From Acidobacteriota bacterium (lineage in GTDB: Bacteria > Acidobacteriota > Terriglobia > Acidiferrales > UBA7541), in assembly GCA_003140295.1 (NCBI GenBank), contig PLJR01000080.1, forward strand, positions 1,255 to 34,424: a stretch of 33,170 bases of DNA, in the 5' to 3' direction. Position numbers and translations under genes: made by a program. The number at the start of each line of letters is the position of its first letter. Within the stretch, counting starts at the first letter, position 1. The notes under the pieces were generated by a model, which saw only the letters and a list, made by a program, of their open reading frames with translations, had not been told where the DNA came from and made no database searches. Positions 3,243 through 10,489 of this stretch are shown piece after piece.

Positions 3243-3352
3243 AGGGGTAGATGATTGCCTTGCGTCTCTCGTGTGCACAGTCGAGCGGGGTAGGGAATTC
3301 CGCCCCAGGCCTAGATTCCGCGCTTCCCGTTTCGAAAAGCTTACCAAGCAAA

Positions 3353-3883
3353 GTGCGCTCCGCCATCCTGGCGATAGACTACGGTCGGCGACGTATCGGA
3401 TTGGCGGTATCGGATGGCTTGGCGATCACCGCCCGGCCACTCGCTACGTGGACTCGCAGCAATCGGCGCCGCGATCTTTCCCGCCTTCGCGAGTTATGCC
3501 GCGCGCTTAACGTGGGAACGGTTATCGTTGGATGGCCGCTTCACCTTGATGGCCAGCCCGGCGAGATGGCCACTGAAGCGACGCGATTTGCCGATCGAGT
3601 GCGCAAAGAATTGGGACTCCCCGTCGAGCTGGTCGATGAGCGGCTGAGCAGCCACGATGCCCGCGCAGCGCTGGGAGAGGCATCCAGCATGGGGCTACGC
3701 GCGAGGCGCCGCAAAGAGACCTTGGACGATGTTGCCGCGGCAGTGGTTTTACGCGATTACCTGGCACATAGAAGTAAAAGCACGCTTCTGCCCGATCCCG
3801 CGGAGCAATCCTTTAAGCCGGCTAGAATAGGTCCGGGCGAGAATTCTTCCCGCGCGCCGGCGCGCCGCCCGAGACGCAGCTAA
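3353..3883 (+). CDS. ruvX: RuvX/YqgF family putative pre-16S rRNA nuclease
   Basis: YqgF-fold (RNase H-like) protein implicated in processing the 5' end of 16S rRNA. Signatures are AILAIDYGRRRIGLAVSD at the N-terminus (catalytic Asp), VIVGWPLHLDG, the LVDERLSS motif (catalytic Glu) and DDVAAAVVL near the C-terminus (second Asp). The ORF opens at ATG 3251, but family proteins normally begin a few residues before the IDYG strand. GTG 3353 gives 176 residues beginning MRSAILAIDYG and fits better, as does a TATAAT box that would start transcription at about 3249. No strong ribosome site is seen before either start. About 30 residues after the domain form a basic, poorly conserved tail. The stop overlaps the mltG start (TAATG). 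Confidence 0.9.
   Translation: MRSAILAIDYGRRRIGLAVSDGLAITARPLATWTRSNRRRDLSRLRELCRALNVGTVIVGWPLHLDGQPGEMATEATRFADRVRKELGLPVELVDERLSSHDARAALGEASSMGLRARRRKETLDDVAAAVVLRDYLAHRSKSTLLPDPAEQSFKPARIGPGENSSRAPARRPRRS
3823..3828 (+). promoter_or_regulatory. candidate internal -10 element (TAGAAT) before mltG
   Basis: TAGAAT inside the 3' end of ruvX lies in the 11-base string CGGCTAGAATA, which recurs exactly before the ABC ATPase gene (8413-8423). It would start transcription about 48 bases before mltG. No -35 was recognised. Confidence 0.3.
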
Positions 3884-4986
3884 TGCGCCGCCGTCTAGGA
3901 CTTCTGTTTGTCGGGCTTTTGGTCATAGCAGGCTGGCTTGGAGTATCGCTTCTGTTGCCGTACCAGGGATTCTCGAGTCAAGGTACTTACGTGGATGTTC
4001 CCCGCGGGGCTTCTCGCAGATCGATCGCCGGCCTGTTGGAAAGTGCAGGAGTCGTAAGGAATCGCTGGGCGTTTGAGATTTTGTCCCGCTTGCGCCCGCG
4101 CCGCACCCTGGAAGCCGGAGAGTATTTTTTTGATCGTCCGGTGACGTCGCTGGACGTGTTCGAGACCCTGGCTGGTGGCCGCGTTTATGTTCGCGAACTG
4201 GTTATACCCGAGGGCTTTTCAATGTTCGATATCGCCGCCCTGGTCGAGCACCAGCAATTCACGACGCGAGAAGAGTTTCTGGCGGCGGCAAGCAATCCTG
4301 CACCGATTCGAGACCTTGCACCAGGCGCGCCTAGTCTGGAGGGTTTTCTGTTCCCGGCCACATACGAATTCCCACGGCACCCGTCGGCGGAAGATATGGT
4401 CACGGCGATGGTCAAACGTTTTCGCCGCGAATGGGCCGCGGTTTCGAGCGAGACCACGAACACCAGCGGCCTGTCCGTCAACCAGGCAGTAACGCTGGCG
4501 TCGCTGGTCGAGCGCGAAACGCCTAAGCCGGACGAGCGGCCGCTGGTCGCCGGCGTGTTTGCCAACCGGTTGCGTGAGCGGCTGCCTCTGCAATGCGATC
4601 CCACCGTGGTGTACGCGTTGGAATTGGCTGGAAAATATGGCGGCAGCCTTCAGGCAGCCAGCCTTCCCTTTGAATCACCGTACAACACCTATCGCCACAC
4701 CGGTCTGCCGCCCGGACCCATCGCCAACCCTGGAAGCGCATCATTGCGTGCGGCGCTCGATCCACAAGAGACCGATTATTTCTATTTCGTAGCTAACACC
4801 GAGGGCGGCCATCTCTTCGGGAAGACTCTGGCAGAGCACGACCGCAACGTGGCTTTGTATCGGCACCGGCTGGCTGAAGAGCGCACCGCCGAAAGCGCTT
4901 CGAAATCCGACCCATCAACCCCAATCCAATCTGGTTCAACCGGATCGGCCGGCAACGCAGCGCCTTCCCCGCGGAGGTCCCCATGA
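3883..4986 (+). CDS. mltG: MltG-type endolytic murein transglycosylase (YceG)
   Basis: Inner-membrane enzyme that cuts nascent glycan strands and so sets peptidoglycan strand length. A signal anchor (LLFVGLLVIAGWLGVSLLL) occupies residues 6-24. A LysM-like segment with ELVIPEGFSMFDIAALV follows, then the YceG catalytic core with LEGFLFPATYEF, LASLVERETPKPDERPLVAGVFANRL (catalytic Glu in VERE), LQCDPTVVYAL, and the closing YNTYRHTGLPPGPIANPG. At 367 residues it is of normal length with a Ser/Pro-rich tail of about 30 residues. The start overlaps the ruvX stop (TAATG) and the stop overlaps the next gene's start (ATGA), so three genes are likely translated in a coupled way. Confidence 0.95.
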   Translation: MRRRLGLLFVGLLVIAGWLGVSLLLPYQGFSSQGTYVDVPRGASRRSIAGLLESAGVVRNRWAFEILSRLRPRRTLEAGEYFFDRPVTSLDVFETLAGGRVYVRELVIPEGFSMFDIAALVEHQQFTTREEFLAAASNPAPIRDLAPGAPSLEGFLFPATYEFPRHPSAEDMVTAMVKRFRREWAAVSSETTNTSGLSVNQAVTLASLVERETPKPDERPLVAGVFANRLRERLPLQCDPTVVYALELAGKYGGSLQAASLPFESPYNTYRHTGLPPGPIANPGSASLRAALDPQETDYFYFVANTEGGHLFGKTLAEHDRNVALYRHRLAEERTAESASKSDPSTPIQSGSTGSAGNAAPSPRRSP

Positions 4987-5561
4987 CAATTTCAGGCCAC
5001 GAAACAAAAAAGGAAATTATCCTCGAACTTGCGAGAGAACTCGGCGCGGAAAGGTTTTCGCCGGCGGAGGTCGAGCAAATCCGCCGCCAGCTTGTAGTAC
5101 GCCTAGGCGCCTCTGGAAAGACCTCGCCTGAATATATTGCCGAGGTCCTCGAGGACGCCGGTTTGCGTGTTGCCTGGTCCACCGAAGCGGACACCCAGGG
5201 CCTGTACGAAGAGGAGTTCCGTGATCTCCTGCACTTCGCGACGCTCGAAGAAGCCGAGATGTGCCTGGTTCGTCTGGATGAATTATTGCGCAAGTTTCGC
5301 GCCGGTGGCGAGGGTACCGCGGCCGAGCGCGTGATGGAGGTCGCCCGACTGGGCCGGCGCCGTGCCGAGATGATCGCTCGCAACCCGCGTGTGGATGCGC
5401 GCAAGCGTGAGGAAAAACAGGAGATTCTGCAATGGTTTCGTATCTGGCTGGATACCCCCGAGGCGTTTTTTGATTGGCTGGACGTGCGCAAGCGTTCGCC
5501 GGATTACGAGCAGCGCTTCGGAGGAACCGCGGCGACGGAACTAGACGACGAGGAATCGTAA
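4983..5561 (+). CDS. conserved-looking hypothetical protein, helical and charged
   Basis: I do not recognise this 192-residue protein. It has no signal peptide or membrane segment and is probably cytoplasmic. The sequence is rich in Glu, Arg and Leu and looks largely alpha-helical, with long amphipathic stretches such as EEAEMCLVRLDELLRKF. An aromatic cluster near the C-terminus (WFRIWLDTPEAFFDWL) could form a hydrophobic core or binding face. The C-terminus is acidic. Its ATG overlaps the mltG stop (ATGA), and normal codon use and coupling argue for a real gene. It probably belongs to the ruvX-mltG operon; a role in cell-wall or RNA processing would be guilt by association only. Confidence 0.75.
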   Translation: MTISGHETKKEIILELARELGAERFSPAEVEQIRRQLVVRLGASGKTSPEYIAEVLEDAGLRVAWSTEADTQGLYEEEFRDLLHFATLEEAEMCLVRLDELLRKFRAGGEGTAAERVMEVARLGRRRAEMIARNPRVDARKREEKQEILQWFRIWLDTPEAFFDWLDVRKRSPDYEQRFGGTAATELDDEES

Positions 5562-5585: not shown

Positions 5586-6194
5586 ATGGAAGATCGCGTG
5601 CCGTTCGGCGACATATTGGGGGAAGAGGCGATTCCGGAGCGCCGGCCCCGCATGGAAATTGAGCCGCTGGATTTGGGCGCGGATGTACGCGCTGTGGGCT
5701 TTGAGCTCATCGATCCCGAGACACGGGAGCCGGTAATCGCAGCCGAGGCCGCGGTCATCTGGGCGGCCACCCTGCGCACGCTTGCGGGTTCTAAACCGTG
5801 GACGCTCGATTTTTTCGCGCATCTCGAGCGCGTGCGCGAGTTTTGCCGGCTTCGCGGTATCGCTTTTCGCGAGCCTAACTCGCACGTGCTGGTCATCGAC
5901 GCTCCGGCGCTCGAGCATCTGGATGCGCTGTTGGAGCGATTTGCGGGCGAAACGTTTGGCGTGCGCTCGGGCGGCACTGCAATTTCCGGTGACGCAACGC
6001 TTGAAAGCAGCTTGGCGGAGCGCGGAGTGGACGCGTACCACGCCGCTTTTACGAGGTACTTATTTTGCGGAGTGTGCGATTTTGAAAATGGTTTTTTCAC
6101 CTTGCTCAGCGAGCGCTTGTGGGCCTCGGAAGTGATTCGTCTCGTACGCCCGGCGGTGGCGGATTTCCGCGTGGACGTTGTTCGCCCTGCCTAG
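5586..6194 (+). CDS. hypothetical protein
   Basis: A 202-residue cytoplasmic-looking protein that I do not recognise. A GGAG ribosome site at 5575-5578 precedes the ATG by 7 bases. The N-terminal third appears to be beta-rich (IEPLDLGADVRAVGFELID). The middle has a helix-strand pattern (HLERVREFCRLRG followed by SHVLVIDAPALEHLDALLERF) resembling a small alpha/beta fold. The C-terminus has FCGVCDFENGFF, with two cysteines that are too few for a confident zinc site. It follows the previous unknown gene by 24 bases and is probably in the same operon. Its 3' end overlaps only the spurious N-terminal extension of the next ORF, not its likely start. Confidence 0.7.
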   Translation: MEDRVPFGDILGEEAIPERRPRMEIEPLDLGADVRAVGFELIDPETREPVIAAEAAVIWAATLRTLAGSKPWTLDFFAHLERVREFCRLRGIAFREPNSHVLVIDAPALEHLDALLERFAGETFGVRSGGTAISGDATLESSLAERGVDAYHAAFTRYLFCGVCDFENGFFTLLSERLWASEVIRLVRPAVADFRVDVVRPA

Positions 6195-6279: not shown

Positions 6280-7245
6280 ATGGAGACGGATACGAAAAGC
6301 GGAATTGGAACCCGGCTGGCGGCGATGGCGGTCGTGTGTTGCGCATTAGGCGGCTGCCTGTCCATTAGCCGCAAACATGCCGTGCCACCGGCGGAGATCC
6401 GTCCCGCGCGCACTGCGAATGAGGCTGAGCTTCTGGCCGTATACAGCAAGCAGGCTGCGGAGGTGCGCTCGATCAATGCCACCGTGACAATGAGTCCCGT
6501 GGCCGGGTCGGCATATACCGGCGTCATCGAGGAATATCATGACGTCGGGGGTTTTATTCTGGCGGCGCGGCCGGCCATGATCCGGGTGATTGGCCAGGCG
6601 CCCGTGGTCTCCAAGGATATTTTCGACATGGTAAGCGATGGTCAGACGTTTCGCATCTTCATCCCCTCGAAAAATACGTTTTTGATAGGCGCGACTGCGC
6701 TCGAGCGGCCGTCGAAAAATCCCATTGAAAACCTGCGCCCGCAACACATTCTGGACGCACTCTTTTGGGCTCCGATGGCGCCCGCCACTCCCATATTGTT
6801 TGAAGAATTTGACGCGTCGCCGGCGCGCTTCTACGTGCTCACGATGCTTCGTAATTTGGCAGAAGGGCTGGAGATTTCGCGTAAAATTTGGTTCGATCGG
6901 CTGGATCTTCGCGTGACTCGCATCCAGATTTATGGACCTGGCGGCAGGCTCGATTCCGATATCGCTTATTCGAATTGGCAACCGGCTGGGGGCCAGGGTG
7001 TCTCAGCAGTTCCTGCGAGCACCGCCCCGGAGGTGGATTTTCCGCGGGACATCCGCATCAGCCGTCCGCAGCAGGATTACCGGCTTAATCTTTCGATAAC
7101 CAAGCTCACCTTGAACGCGGAAATCCCTCCCGAGCGATTCAACCTGGCGCAGCCGCCAGGGACCGAATTGACCCGGGTGGGGCAGGACCAGGCGCAGACC
7201 TTCCCACCCAACCGGGTTCAACGGCAGGTTGAGGACCGCAATTGA
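6280..7245 (+). CDS. LolA/LolB-superfamily-like lipoprotein
   Basis: A 321-residue predicted lipoprotein. The start at 6280 puts a short basic n-region, a hydrophobic stretch (LAAMAVVCCALGGC) and a lipobox LGGC ending at Cys26 in the right order; the ORF-track start at 6178 would bury these and overlap the previous gene. The mature part alternates short strands (VRSINATVTMSP, MIRVIGQAPV, FRIFIPSKNTFLIG) as in the curved half-barrel of LolA/LolB-type lipoprotein carriers, with a Pro/Ala-rich stretch before the last strands. The paralogue-like feature IDLWLD/WFDRLDL-type strand is shared with the LolA-like gene at 9737. The stop overlaps the permease start (TTGA). Assignment to the LolA/LolB superfamily is by pattern, not by search. 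Confidence 0.75.
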   Translation: METDTKSGIGTRLAAMAVVCCALGGCLSISRKHAVPPAEIRPARTANEAELLAVYSKQAAEVRSINATVTMSPVAGSAYTGVIEEYHDVGGFILAARPAMIRVIGQAPVVSKDIFDMVSDGQTFRIFIPSKNTFLIGATALERPSKNPIENLRPQHILDALFWAPMAPATPILFEEFDASPARFYVLTMLRNLAEGLEISRKIWFDRLDLRVTRIQIYGPGGRLDSDIAYSNWQPAGGQGVSAVPASTAPEVDFPRDIRISRPQQDYRLNLSITKLTLNAEIPPERFNLAQPPGTELTRVGQDQAQTFPPNRVQRQVEDRN

Positions 7246-8342
7246 TCAGCAAGATGATCCTGAGCAATGTGCTCCATCGGCCACTACGCACGCTGATCAG
7301 CGTCCTCGCTGTCGGCGTCGAGGTTGCTCTCGTCATTGTGATTGTCGGGCTGACCAGCGGCATCGTTCAGGAAACCGCCAAACGCATCGAAGGCGTGGGC
7401 GCCGACATCATGCTGCAGCCGCCGTCGGCTACAGTTTTCCTTGCGTTCAGCGGAGCGGCCATGCCGATGCGCATCGGCGCGCGCTTGCGTGAGTTGAGGT
7501 ATGTGCAGTCGGTTGCCCCGGTTCTGCTGCAGTTCAATTCCACCGGGGGCCTGGACATCGTCTATGGCATCGATCCCGAAGCCTTTCGGGCCGTGTCGGG
7601 AGGGTTCGTCTTTTTGCAGGGGCACGATATGGAGAGTCCCGACGACTTGCTGCTCGACGATGTCGCTTCTCGGGCCAAACACATCAACGTCGGCGATACT
7701 TTTCGCCTGCTCGACCACGATTTTCACGTCGTGGGCATCGTCGAGCATGGCAAAGGCGCGCGGGTATTTGTGCCGCTCGACACCTTGCAGGATCTTGCCG
7801 GCGCCCCTGATAAAGCTTCCATTTTCTTCCTGCGGTGCACGCGTCCCGACCATACTCCCGCCGTAATCGACGAAATGCGCGCCATTTTGCCGGGTTATGA
7901 GATCCGTCCTCTCAAGGATTTTCTTTCTCTGATGACGGCCACGACGCTCCCGGGACTGTCCGCGTTCGTGAACAGCATGATCGCTCTGGCGGTGGCCATC
8001 GGGTTCCTGGTGATTTTTCTCTCGATGTACACGACGGTGATCGAACGCACCCGCGATACTGGAGTTCTGAAGTCCATGGGCGCGTCGAATGCCTATATCG
8101 TCCGTACCCTGCTCGGAGAAACCGCGGCCATATGCGTTACGGGAATCGTTCTGGGCATCGCGATGAGCTATTCGATTCGCACGTTCTTTCTCTCCGCGTT
8201 TCCGACGCTTTCGATTCTCATCACCGCCGACTGGATAGTCCGAGCCACGCTTATCGCCGCAGCCGGCGGGCTGCTCGGAGCCTCCTACCCGGCTTGGCTT
8301 GCCAGCCGCAAAGATGTGATCGAGGCGCTGGCCTACGATTGA
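7242..8342 (+). CDS. ABC transporter permease, FtsX/MacB/LolC-like
   Basis: A 366-residue inner-membrane permease with one N-terminal helix (about residues 18-40), a large periplasmic domain (45-240) and three C-terminal helices (about 243-266, 293-315, 332-355), the layout of the MacB/LolC/DevC class. ERTRDTGVLKSMGAS after the second helix is the conserved cytoplasmic segment that contacts the ATPase. Such permeases do not form channels but transmit ATP-driven motion to the periplasm, for example to release lipoproteins or drive efflux. Translation starts at TTG 7242, which overlaps the previous stop, with GAGG 8 bases upstream; ATG 7254 is an alternative. The partner ATPase follows after 93 bases. 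Confidence 0.9.
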   Translation: MISKMILSNVLHRPLRTLISVLAVGVEVALVIVIVGLTSGIVQETAKRIEGVGADIMLQPPSATVFLAFSGAAMPMRIGARLRELRYVQSVAPVLLQFNSTGGLDIVYGIDPEAFRAVSGGFVFLQGHDMESPDDLLLDDVASRAKHINVGDTFRLLDHDFHVVGIVEHGKGARVFVPLDTLQDLAGAPDKASIFFLRCTRPDHTPAVIDEMRAILPGYEIRPLKDFLSLMTATTLPGLSAFVNSMIALAVAIGFLVIFLSMYTTVIERTRDTGVLKSMGASNAYIVRTLLGETAAICVTGIVLGIAMSYSIRTFFLSAFPTLSILITADWIVRATLIAAAGGLLGASYPAWLASRKDVIEALAYD

Positions 8343-8416
8343 ACCCGGATGAAAACCCCGCGAGTTCCCAAAACGCCTGGCCTGCAATTGCTCTAGGACG
8401 TTCCGGTAAGTACGGC

Positions 8417-8422
8417 TAGAAT
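8417..8422 (+). promoter_or_regulatory. candidate -10 element (TAGAAT) before the ABC ATPase gene
   Basis: Part of the same CGGCTAGAATA string seen before mltG. A start near 8429 would make the GTG at 8436 almost leaderless. No acceptable -35 at 16-18 bases. Confidence 0.3.
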
Positions 8423-8435
8423 ATTTCCGCGCTCC

Positions 8436-9161
8436 GTGACACCATCAGCCGCCGGGACGCGAGCGTCGCGAGCCAGTGTGGAACCAATACTGAAGACCGA
8501 GGGTCTTTGGAAGACCTATCACTCCGGAAAAGTTGAATTTTCGGCATTGCGGGGTGTTAACTTCGACGTTCTTCCCGGCGAATTCGTCACGGTAATGGGC
8601 CCATCGGGCTGCGGCAAATCCACATTGCTGTACGTGGTTGGGGGGCTGGCGCGGGCAACGCGAGGGCGAGTTTTTGTAGACGGCAACGACCTTACGGTTA
8701 TCAATGATGCCGAGCGCACCCGGCTGCGCCGCCACAAAGTCGGGTTCATCTTTCAAAGATTTAATCTGTTGCCGACGCTTAACGCTTCTGACAACATCGC
8801 TATCGCGCAACACATCCATGGCGATGGATTTGATCTGCATCGCTTCGATGTCGTAACCAGTATGCTCGGACTATCCGGCCGCCTGCGCCACCGGCCGTCG
8901 GAACTTTCCGGCGGTGAACAGCAACGGGTGGCGATCGCCCGGGCGATCATCAATGAGCCCAAAATCGTGCTGGCCGATGAGCCCACTGGAAATCTGGACA
9001 CCGGAAACTCAGAGACAGTGCTCGGAATGCTTCGCCAACTGAATAAAGATCTTGGCCAGACCATCGTTATGATCACTCATAATCCCGAAGCTGCGGCGTA
9101 TTCCGACCGTGTGGTGCACATGCGCGACGGAATTATTGTGGATGGCGTGCCCGCCGATTGA
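8436..9161 (+). CDS. ABC transporter ATP-binding protein, LolD/MacB-like
   Basis: A complete nucleotide-binding subunit of 241 residues: Walker [10 protein letters not shown] (55-63), Q-loop in FIFQRFN (Gln107), signature LSGGEQQ (157-163), Walker B IVLADEP (178-184), a D-loop in GNLD and the H-loop His in MITHN (215). The LNASDN stretch and overall length match the LolD/MacB/FtsE-like group that pairs with FtsX-type permeases, so it almost certainly powers the permease encoded just upstream. The ORF-track start is GTG 8436; GTG 8478 ([10 protein letters not shown]) fits the usual N-terminus of the family better and would avoid a Ser/Ala/Arg-rich leader. The stop overlaps the next gene's TTG start (TTGA). 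Confidence 0.93.
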
Positions 9162-9565
9162 CGCAGATGCGAACTATGTGGCGCATTCTGACGCGTATCA
9201 TTTTCTGGTCTTTCGAGCGCGGGACGTGGCCCTACGACGTGGCCGTGGCGGTAATCGTCGTGTTCGTGCTGCTCTCTCCGCGCTCCTGGTTTCACGATCG
9301 TCCACCGGTCGGCCCCCCACCCAACCCCGCGATGGTTCAGCTGCAGGGGGCCGATCCCGCGAGTCTTGTGGCGACCTATCGCGTGGACGCACGCCTGCTC
9401 GCCAATGTACGCATGCCCGAATCCGAACTCGAACATGATCTCCACGAGGCGGTCCAGAAAAATGTCCAAAATCTGCACACCAGCAGGTTCCGAATCCTGC
9501 GGATCGAACCCGTACGCCGCGACGATGGCACCGTGGCCTATTACGACGTGTCCATAAAGCCGTAA
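9158..9565 (+). CDS. small single-helix membrane protein, unknown function
   Basis: A 135-residue protein with an aromatic and basic N-terminus followed by one membrane helix ([16 protein letters not shown], about residues 26-41), a Pro-rich linker ([11 protein letters not shown]) and a C-terminal domain of roughly 80 residues with the ending [24 protein letters not shown], which looks like two beta strands. I do not recognise the family. The start is TTG 9158 overlapping the ATPase stop (TTGA), or ATG 9167 without overlap. Its coupling to the ABC genes suggests an accessory part of that transporter, with the C-terminal domain probably facing the periplasm; this is inference. Confidence 0.7.
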
Positions 9566-9736
9566 TATGTGCCTAAGATCCGCTAGACTGATTGGCGGCC
9601 ATACGCGACCGCAATCGTTATTCGGCATCTCACCCTTTAGGCTAGGCGCACGACACAGAAAACGACCTAGTTGAGGAATTAACGGCACGTCCCAGGATTA
9701 AACAGATTCATTTTCATTGCGGGGAGGCCATCGCTG

Positions 9737-10489
9737 TTGACCACGAACGATTCCAGGCGAGACCAGAGACTGGCATTGACGGTTCATTTGCTTAACAAAG
9801 TGGCCGCGATGGTGCTTTTCGTGGTCATGATGACGGCCGGTTCCATCCTCATCCCGCAGGTTGCTGCACAGGGCCCGCGAAACGTCGACGACATCCTCAA
9901 ACAGGTAGACCGCGAGGCCAAGGAATTTCAAAGCCTCACTGCGGATATTGAGCGCACCAAAGTCACTGTAGTGGTCGACGATCATTCCACCGAATCCGGC
10001 CAGATAGAAGTTCGCCGCGACGACAAGATGCGCATCGATCTCACCGCACCCGTCTCGCGTACGATTTTGCGCGACGGCGATCACCTTTACATTTACACTC
10101 CGAAAATTCAACGCGTCGAAGAATATGACTTGAGCAAGCATCGCGCACTCGTGGACCAGTTCCTGCTCCTCGGATTCGGAACTTCCGGAGACAGCCTTAA
10201 AGCCAGTTACTTGATAACTCTGCAGGGAGAGCAGACGCTAGGCACGCAAAAAGTTGTGCGTTTGGAGCTCACCCCGAAATCCCCCGACGTGCGCAGCGAG
10301 ATTTCGAAAATTGATCTTTGGCTCGACGAGGCTACCTGGCTGCCGGCACAACAGCAGTTTTTCGAGACGGGATCAGGCGACTACTTTATTATCCGCTATA
10401 CGAACGTCAGCCGAAACGTTCGCCTGCCCGATTCGCAATTCAAGCCCCGCTGGCCAGGCGGAGTGACCAAAGTGCGGCCTCAGAGTTAG
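9737..10489 (+). CDS. LolA-like outer-membrane lipoprotein carrier protein
   Basis: A 250-residue exported protein resembling LolA, the periplasmic chaperone that ferries lipoproteins to the outer membrane. A hydrophobic signal segment spans about residues 24-43 and ends at VAAQ. The mature part has the LolA-type series of strands: FQSLTADIERTKV, GQIEVRRDDKMRIDLTAP, HLYIYTPKIQRVEEYDL, then RLELTPKS and IDLWLDEATWLPAQQQFFE near the end. The TTG start at 9737 is supported by GGGGAGG nine bases upstream. A 171-base gap separates it from the ABC genes, so it may have its own promoter. Together with the lipoprotein, permease and ATPase it makes a near-complete Lol-type set. Confidence 0.8.
   Translation: MTTNDSRRDQRLALTVHLLNKVAAMVLFVVMMTAGSILIPQVAAQGPRNVDDILKQVDREAKEFQSLTADIERTKVTVVVDDHSTESGQIEVRRDDKMRIDLTAPVSRTILRDGDHLYIYTPKIQRVEEYDLSKHRALVDQFLLLGFGTSGDSLKASYLITLQGEQTLGTQKVVRLELTPKSPDVRSEISKIDLWLDEATWLPAQQQFFETGSGDYFIIRYTNVSRNVRLPDSQFKPRWPGGVTKVRPQS

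Follow-up and report, generated by a model that had tools for sequence, protein, structure and literature searches.

It has long been asked how glycerophospholipids travel outward to reach the outer membrane; the best-known candidates are AsmA-like bridges, thought to be unselective. The mycobacterial protein LprG has the LolA/LolB fold, and lipoarabinomannan has a phosphatidylinositol (PI) anchor. LprG, a lipid-pocket lipoprotein, partners the inner-membrane transporter Rv1410 and has been linked to surface display of lipoarabinomannan (PMC10576003). In Bacteroidota, flexirubin loci carry LolA2 and LolB2, a LolA–LolB pair apparently specialised for a lipid-like product (PMC11885536). Among Lol systems proper, diderm bacteria most often have a single LolC/E-type permease with LolD (LolF–LolD), and LolF–LolD plus LolA without LolB is usual outside the beta- and gamma-Proteobacteria (PMC11784454). 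Here we analyse a stretch of 33,170 nucleotides from an acidobacterial genome (hereafter the window; contig PLJR01000080.1 of assembly GCA_003140295.1, our C239; 4.1 Mb, 418 contigs, 73% complete), in which five adjacent genes encode a LolB-like lipoprotein, an ATP-binding cassette (ABC) permease, a LolD-like ATPase, a small one-helix protein and a LolA-like carrier. We give roughly an even chance that the cluster is a further Lol-type route between the membranes, dedicated to an inositol phospholipid or to something that uses one as its anchor. What is new is its genomic coupling to inositol-phospholipid synthesis; the Lol-type single-permease build was already known.

The five open reading frames (ORFs) were confirmed on the + strand, overlapping or separated by short gaps. 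They encode the lipoprotein, proposed as the outer-membrane acceptor (6280..7245, 321 aa); the single permease, proposed as the lipid extractor (7242..8342, 366 aa); the ATPase (8436..9161, 241 aa); the one-helix protein, proposed as an adaptor (9158..9565, 135 aa, starting at TTG 9158 or at the in-frame ATG 9167); and the LolA-like carrier, presumed periplasmic (9737..10489, 250 aa, TTG start).

The lipoprotein has a signal peptide and a lipobox, LGGC, at residues 23–26, with Leu directly after the Cys. Searches with Pfam and NCBIfam profiles gave it no confident family and left PF03550 (LolB) unmatched; among 25 homologues, 13 match PF17131 (LolA_like), 10 match PF14125 (DUF4292) and one reaches PF03550 (E 0.0014). 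An AlphaFold model based on these 25 homologues has a pLDDT of 87.2 and a pTM of 0.80, and all leading Foldseek matches to it in the PDB belong to the LolA/LolB superfamily. Specifically, E. coli LolB (1iwm_A) ranks highest by target-normalised score (TM 0.75) and P. gingivalis LolB (9tpm) by query-normalised score (TM 0.52). A sequence search against solved structures gave no LolB match, so the likeness to LolB comes from the fold search. The modelled protein is a LolA/LolB-fold lipoprotein, for which we propose an outer-membrane location. In LolB the loop between strands 3 and 4 has an exposed hydrophobic residue; the sequence of the corresponding loop has hydrophobic residues in the 25 homologues (PVV in the window, NPLT in others).

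The permease has four transmembrane (TM) helices (residues ~18–36, 242–260, 286–304 and 315–333 by hydropathy), a periplasmic core between TM1 and TM2, and an FtsX domain, and it matches MacB_PCD (E 4e-17) and FtsX (E 4e-13) in Pfam. This architecture is common to MacB and not specific to LolC/E. The permease scores 30.2 bits with the lolCE equivalog TIGR02212, below the cut-off of 362, and its model (pLDDT 85.7) is nearest in Foldseek to MacB (E 1e-18), then to LolE (8.5e-16) and the haem exporter HrtB. The ATPase has a Walker A motif and an LSGGE signature, and its best NCBIfam model is TIGR02211 (LolD), at 214.5 bits against a cut-off of 307.75. The carrier matches PF03548 (LolA) with 41.3 bits, above the cut-off of 23.6, and scores 55.6 bits with the lolA equivalog TIGR00547, below the cut-off of 112, and 54.5 bits with NF053544 (LolA2). 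Furthermore, LolA-like copies from such clusters split from three classical LolAs in a tree (support 98/95). The cluster appears to work in a Lol-like manner; by these cut-offs it lies outside the LolCDE and LolA equivalog families.

The one-helix protein matched no family in Pfam or NCBIfam profile searches. In the alignment of its homologues, a motif RG[ST]WxYD precedes the helix and a small C-terminal domain follows it, and the charge pattern agrees with an N-in/C-out helix. A preliminary description of this DNA, made from the sequence alone, had read the five genes as a Lol-type set that includes a lipid-anchored LolA/LolB-like protein, and the coordinates, profile matches, lipobox, fold search and conserved gene order (below) bear this out. 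Its suggestion of profile searches for three products yielded a family for the carrier and none for the lipoprotein and the one-helix protein.

Searches with the window proteins detected homologues of the one-helix protein in 64/149 acidobacterial genomes and of the lipoprotein in 55/149. The DNA around the matches shows the order lipoprotein–permease–ATPase–one-helix–LolA in many families of the phylum, and the same order was seen again in contigs L104–L108, L128, L148, L159, L163 and L177, which argues that the cluster is more than a chance assembly. In some lineages the permease gene lies elsewhere in the genome, and in f2, a family of the window's class, the set is divided among several loci. 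The best 80 permease matches in 84,980 species genomes are nearly all from Acidobacteriota, Edaphobacter and Granulicella among them. A related permease occurs outside the phylum in a metagenome-assembled genome of Candidatus Glassbacteria (L166), with no other cluster gene on the stretch examined. Ordinary paralogy to the genome's many ADOP/MacB permeases was considered and set aside, as it leaves the conserved five-gene order unexplained.

Two variants concern the LolA-like gene. It is duplicated in tandem at L045:6361-7838, and a radical SAM protein of 337–375 aa, without an assigned function, is encoded directly or closely 3′ of it at L039:9455-10468, L046:5702-6733, L049:8662-9789, L054:8972-9985 and about 12825 in L105.

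The cluster is distinct from the classical Lol genes of the same genome. The window genome has a locus (L063) with the order lysS–LolF permease–LolD, in which LolF scores 298 bits, short of the 362 cut-off yet ten times the score of the cluster permease, and LolD scores 259 bits, short of 307.75. A second LolA on another contig reaches 115.6 bits with TIGR00547, above the cut-off. The presence of a separate LolF–LolD and LolA argues for the cluster being a specialised route rather than the housekeeping lipoprotein route. No LolB (PF03550) is recognisable in the window genome or in 144/149 acidobacterial genomes. The preliminary description had proposed that the route is non-classical and includes an additional subunit, which the present analysis supports. 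It had also stressed a single permease in place of a LolC–LolE pair: there is indeed one MacB_PCD/FtsX permease, which is ordinary, since LolF–LolD is the usual arrangement. The separate complete LolCDE–LolA–LolB set that it had named as counter-evidence is present as far as LolF–LolD and LolA, with no recognisable LolB. Overall, its interpretation is supported in part, and the coupling to inositol-phospholipid synthesis is not visible from the window.

That coupling emerges from co-occurrence. Next to the cluster in several loci is a gene for a CDP-alcohol phosphatidyltransferase, here named PIPS, that among curated models scores best, though below the cut-offs, with archaetidylinositol-phosphate and phosphatidylinositol-phosphate synthases; these proteins match PF01066 above its cut-off and have the active-site motif. 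Among 148 genomes, 53 have both lipoprotein and PIPS, 1 the lipoprotein only, 30 PIPS only and 64 neither (Fisher p 3e-17), so that PIPS is present in 53/54 lipoprotein-bearing genomes and 30/94 others. A later profile search added the lipoprotein in genomes G021, G051 and G063, outside this count. Scoring either machine part against PIPS gives 68/2/15/63 in the same order; this count is circular in part, since some genomes carry the one-helix domain as a fusion with PIPS. Any machine part against inositol-phosphate synthase (MIPS; PF01658) gives 67/3/20/58, the three exceptions being 75–81% complete. In each of the 31 families that carry a machine part, PIPS and PF01658 are present in at least one genome, and the window genome has PF01658. 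An apparent absence of inositol synthesis from most cluster genomes, suggested when a first MIPS query (the L099 protein) gave 19 strong matches, was rejected once PF01658 revealed a longer MIPS type. PI is a minor lipid of Occallatibacter bavaricus (PMC12935467) and is reported in Arenimicrobium and Brevitalea (PMC12816986), so inositol lipids exist in the phylum; the Chloracidobacterium lipid list is without PI (PMC12816986).

The neighbourhood survey, which the preliminary description had suggested, revealed physical linkage to PIPS as well. In 22/53 genomes, from 7 families, no more than 20 kb separates PIPS from the lipoprotein gene. As a control, the classical LolC/E gene was never that close to PIPS (0/62 genomes with both PIPS and a machine part). 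In L046, L047, L086–L088, L148 and L159, the genes MlaE–MlaF–MlaD–PIPS are convergent to (DedA–)lipoprotein–permease–ATPase–one-helix–LolA; in L046, L047, L086, L087, L148 and L159, a DedA/VTT-family gene is the operon's first gene, directly 5′ of the lipoprotein gene. DedA upstream together with convergent MlaEFD–PIPS is found in families f28, f50, f53 and others. In f19 and f8, Tes, a tetraether lipid synthase (571 and 619 bits, cut-off 450), stands between PIPS and the operon or permease: L072 reads PIPS–Tes–lipoprotein–permease–ATPase–one-helix–LolA, and in L216 PIPS–Tes faces a lone permease, the remaining cluster genes being on another contig of that genome. PIPS is also near the lipoprotein gene in f2. 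Since the arrangements vary, a single frozen neighbourhood is a poor explanation of the linkage. A search of open-access literature gave no earlier report of such a coupling.

Three side observations belong to these loci. Only one genome of 62 has a classical LolC/E gene near the cluster, at 9 kb (G016:C193). In L225, L226 and L227, from the window's own genus, a protein that begins with MSDAFLAIVNPAAG or a similar sequence is encoded near PIPS; judged by its sequence, it is probably a lipid kinase of the diacylglycerol-kinase type. Several genomes of the window's family, f1, have two strong PIPS paralogues each (G153, G154, G162, G165, G166, G172 and others).

Gene fusions tie the one-helix domain to both the synthase and the carrier. 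The domain forms the C-terminus of PIPS in a single open frame in 14 genomes of 8 families (f3, f15, f20, f24, f33, f44, f46 and f62); in 4 genomes of f30 it is instead the N-terminal part of the LolA-like carrier. The first one-helix search gave open frames of about 300 aa that might have been shadow frames, and the fusions were therefore checked: the 14 counted are those in which profiles matched both halves in one frame, and L057 and L058, where the small gene lies 3′ of PIPS in another frame, were left out. In f20 (G024 and G050), the PIPS–one-helix fusion adjoins the LolA, ATPase and lipoprotein genes. PIPS enzymes work at the cytoplasmic surface of the membrane and LolA in the periplasm, so both types of fusion agree with an N-in/C-out helix. 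Judged from these frames, one domain would join synthase and carrier.

From the computed anatomy, folds, conservation, co-occurrence, linkage and fusions, we infer what is moved, in which direction, and what each step contributes, as follows. A PIPS enzyme, encoded elsewhere in this lineage, would synthesise the lipid at the inner membrane, on its cytoplasmic face. The lipid would then reach the periplasmic leaflet, possibly helped by a DedA-family protein, whose gene lies 5′ of the operon in some lineages. The LolF–LolD-like permease–ATPase pair would extract it from the membrane and the LolA-like carrier would receive it, while the one-helix protein would hold synthase, transporter and carrier together. 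Finally, the LolB-like lipoprotein would accept the lipid at the outer membrane. A more specific version is possible, at clearly less than an even chance: the one-helix domain may be an undescribed adaptor that docks PIPS to the LolA-like carrier and the ABC extractor, so that outward transport is coupled to synthesis, with a LolB-like acceptor and a lipid enriched in the outer membrane of Acidobacteriota. If the pathway exists, it would be a class-specific, ATP-driven alternative to unselective bridges, tied to one lipid synthase; it would supply a candidate LolB-like protein for a phylum in which LolB is mostly unrecognised, and would give a widespread one-helix protein, so far unannotated, a function. 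The hypothesis is testable in cultivated Acidobacteriota.

Compared with the described systems, the cluster resembles LolF–LolD–LolA(–LolB) (TIGR02212, TIGR02211, TIGR00547, PF03550) in its FtsX-type permease with a periplasmic core, LolD-like ATPase, LolA-like carrier and LolB-fold lipoprotein. It differs in members that score below the equivalog cut-offs, in the extra one-helix subunit, in its coexistence with a classical set and in its coupling to inositol-phospholipid synthesis. LolA2/LolB2 belong to another phylum and locus, with pigment synthesis there and PIPS/MIPS and a one-helix protein here. LprG works with a major facilitator superfamily transporter rather than an ABC transporter, and has neither a LolA-like carrier nor a one-helix adaptor beside it. 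Mla (MlaFEDBCA) shares ABC-driven intermembrane lipid traffic, and its MlaEFD genes meet the cluster in the convergent arrangements above, whereas neither its MCE-domain architecture nor its MlaE permease is related to the cluster permease.

Several observations weigh against an inositol-lipid pathway. The substrate specificity assigned to PIPS comes from profile scores that fall short of the curated cut-offs of NF045883 and NF040950 (124 vs 170 and 158 vs 180). Genome G021, which is 98% complete, has the machine and no detected PIPS. The co-occurrence tests treat genomes or families as independent, so their significance is overstated; phylogeny enters through family counts only. PIPS was not found in the 73% complete window genome, likely through incompleteness of the assembly, since all three genomes of the window's own genus have it; nor, in the loci of the window's own family that were inspected, did PIPS turn up within 10 kb of the machine. 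The one-helix–LolA fusion is limited to one family. Furthermore, most of the fusion families (f15, f24, f33, f44, f46 and f62) are without the permease and lipoprotein; in the PIPS-fusion families other than f20, the genomes tested gave nothing of this type beyond a weak and partial match to the lipoprotein in G099 and in G116. The one-helix domain therefore belongs first to PIPS, can serve it without a transporter, and need not couple it to transport.

The main rival, which we regard as unlikely, is a second lipoprotein-sorting route, in which a LolFD–LolA–LolB-like set serves some of the lipoproteins and has no particular connection with inositol lipids. Every part has a Lol fold or ancestry, Lol machines move lipoproteins wherever tested, and such a route would supply a LolB-like protein where PF03550 LolB is missing. 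However, TIGR02212-type LolC/E permeases match in 149/149 acidobacterial genomes and LolA (PF03548) in 143/149, many of them without this cluster, and the evidence from co-occurrence, linkage and fusions favours a tie to lipid synthesis.

Still less probable is a general phospholipid transporter, or one for a special lipid such as membrane-spanning tetraether or iso-diabolic lipids, to which inositol would be incidental. The Tes, DedA and MlaEFD neighbours fit such a role, as does iso-diabolic acid being typical of the phylum (PMC12816986). Tes or a Tes-like radical SAM protein stands beside the cluster only in f8, f19 and f30 (L072:5971-7581, L216:5820-7442, L090:7043-9130 and L082:4836-6594; the f30 match is weaker, and the copy in L082 was identified solely through its resemblance to the other copies), whereas the PIPS/MIPS tie is far broader, and a LolA cavity would probably have difficulty holding a membrane-spanning lipid. 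The presence of Tes beside the cluster is in itself relevant to membrane-spanning lipids in Acidobacteriota.

Export of a small molecule or peptide of the MacAB or DevBCA type, the alternative given in the preliminary description as MacB- or DevC-type export, is very improbable: MacB provides the permease's nearest solved structures and the ATPase scores 213 bits with a darobactin-exporter model and 189 with DevA, but no HlyD/MacA adaptor or TolC was found among the five genes or their recurring neighbours, to which the search was confined, and their place is taken by the LolA-like carrier and the LolB-fold lipoprotein.

Upstream of the cluster, between MltG and the lipoprotein gene, the window has two ORFs without a Pfam match (4983-5561 and 5586-6194; 192 and 202 aa). 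The genes for RuvX and MltG (3251..4986, + strand, assigned by Pfam) are probably outside the machine. Their position 5′ of the lipoprotein gene is kept within the class, with the same order in L103 and L104 and a partly preserved one in the related family f2.

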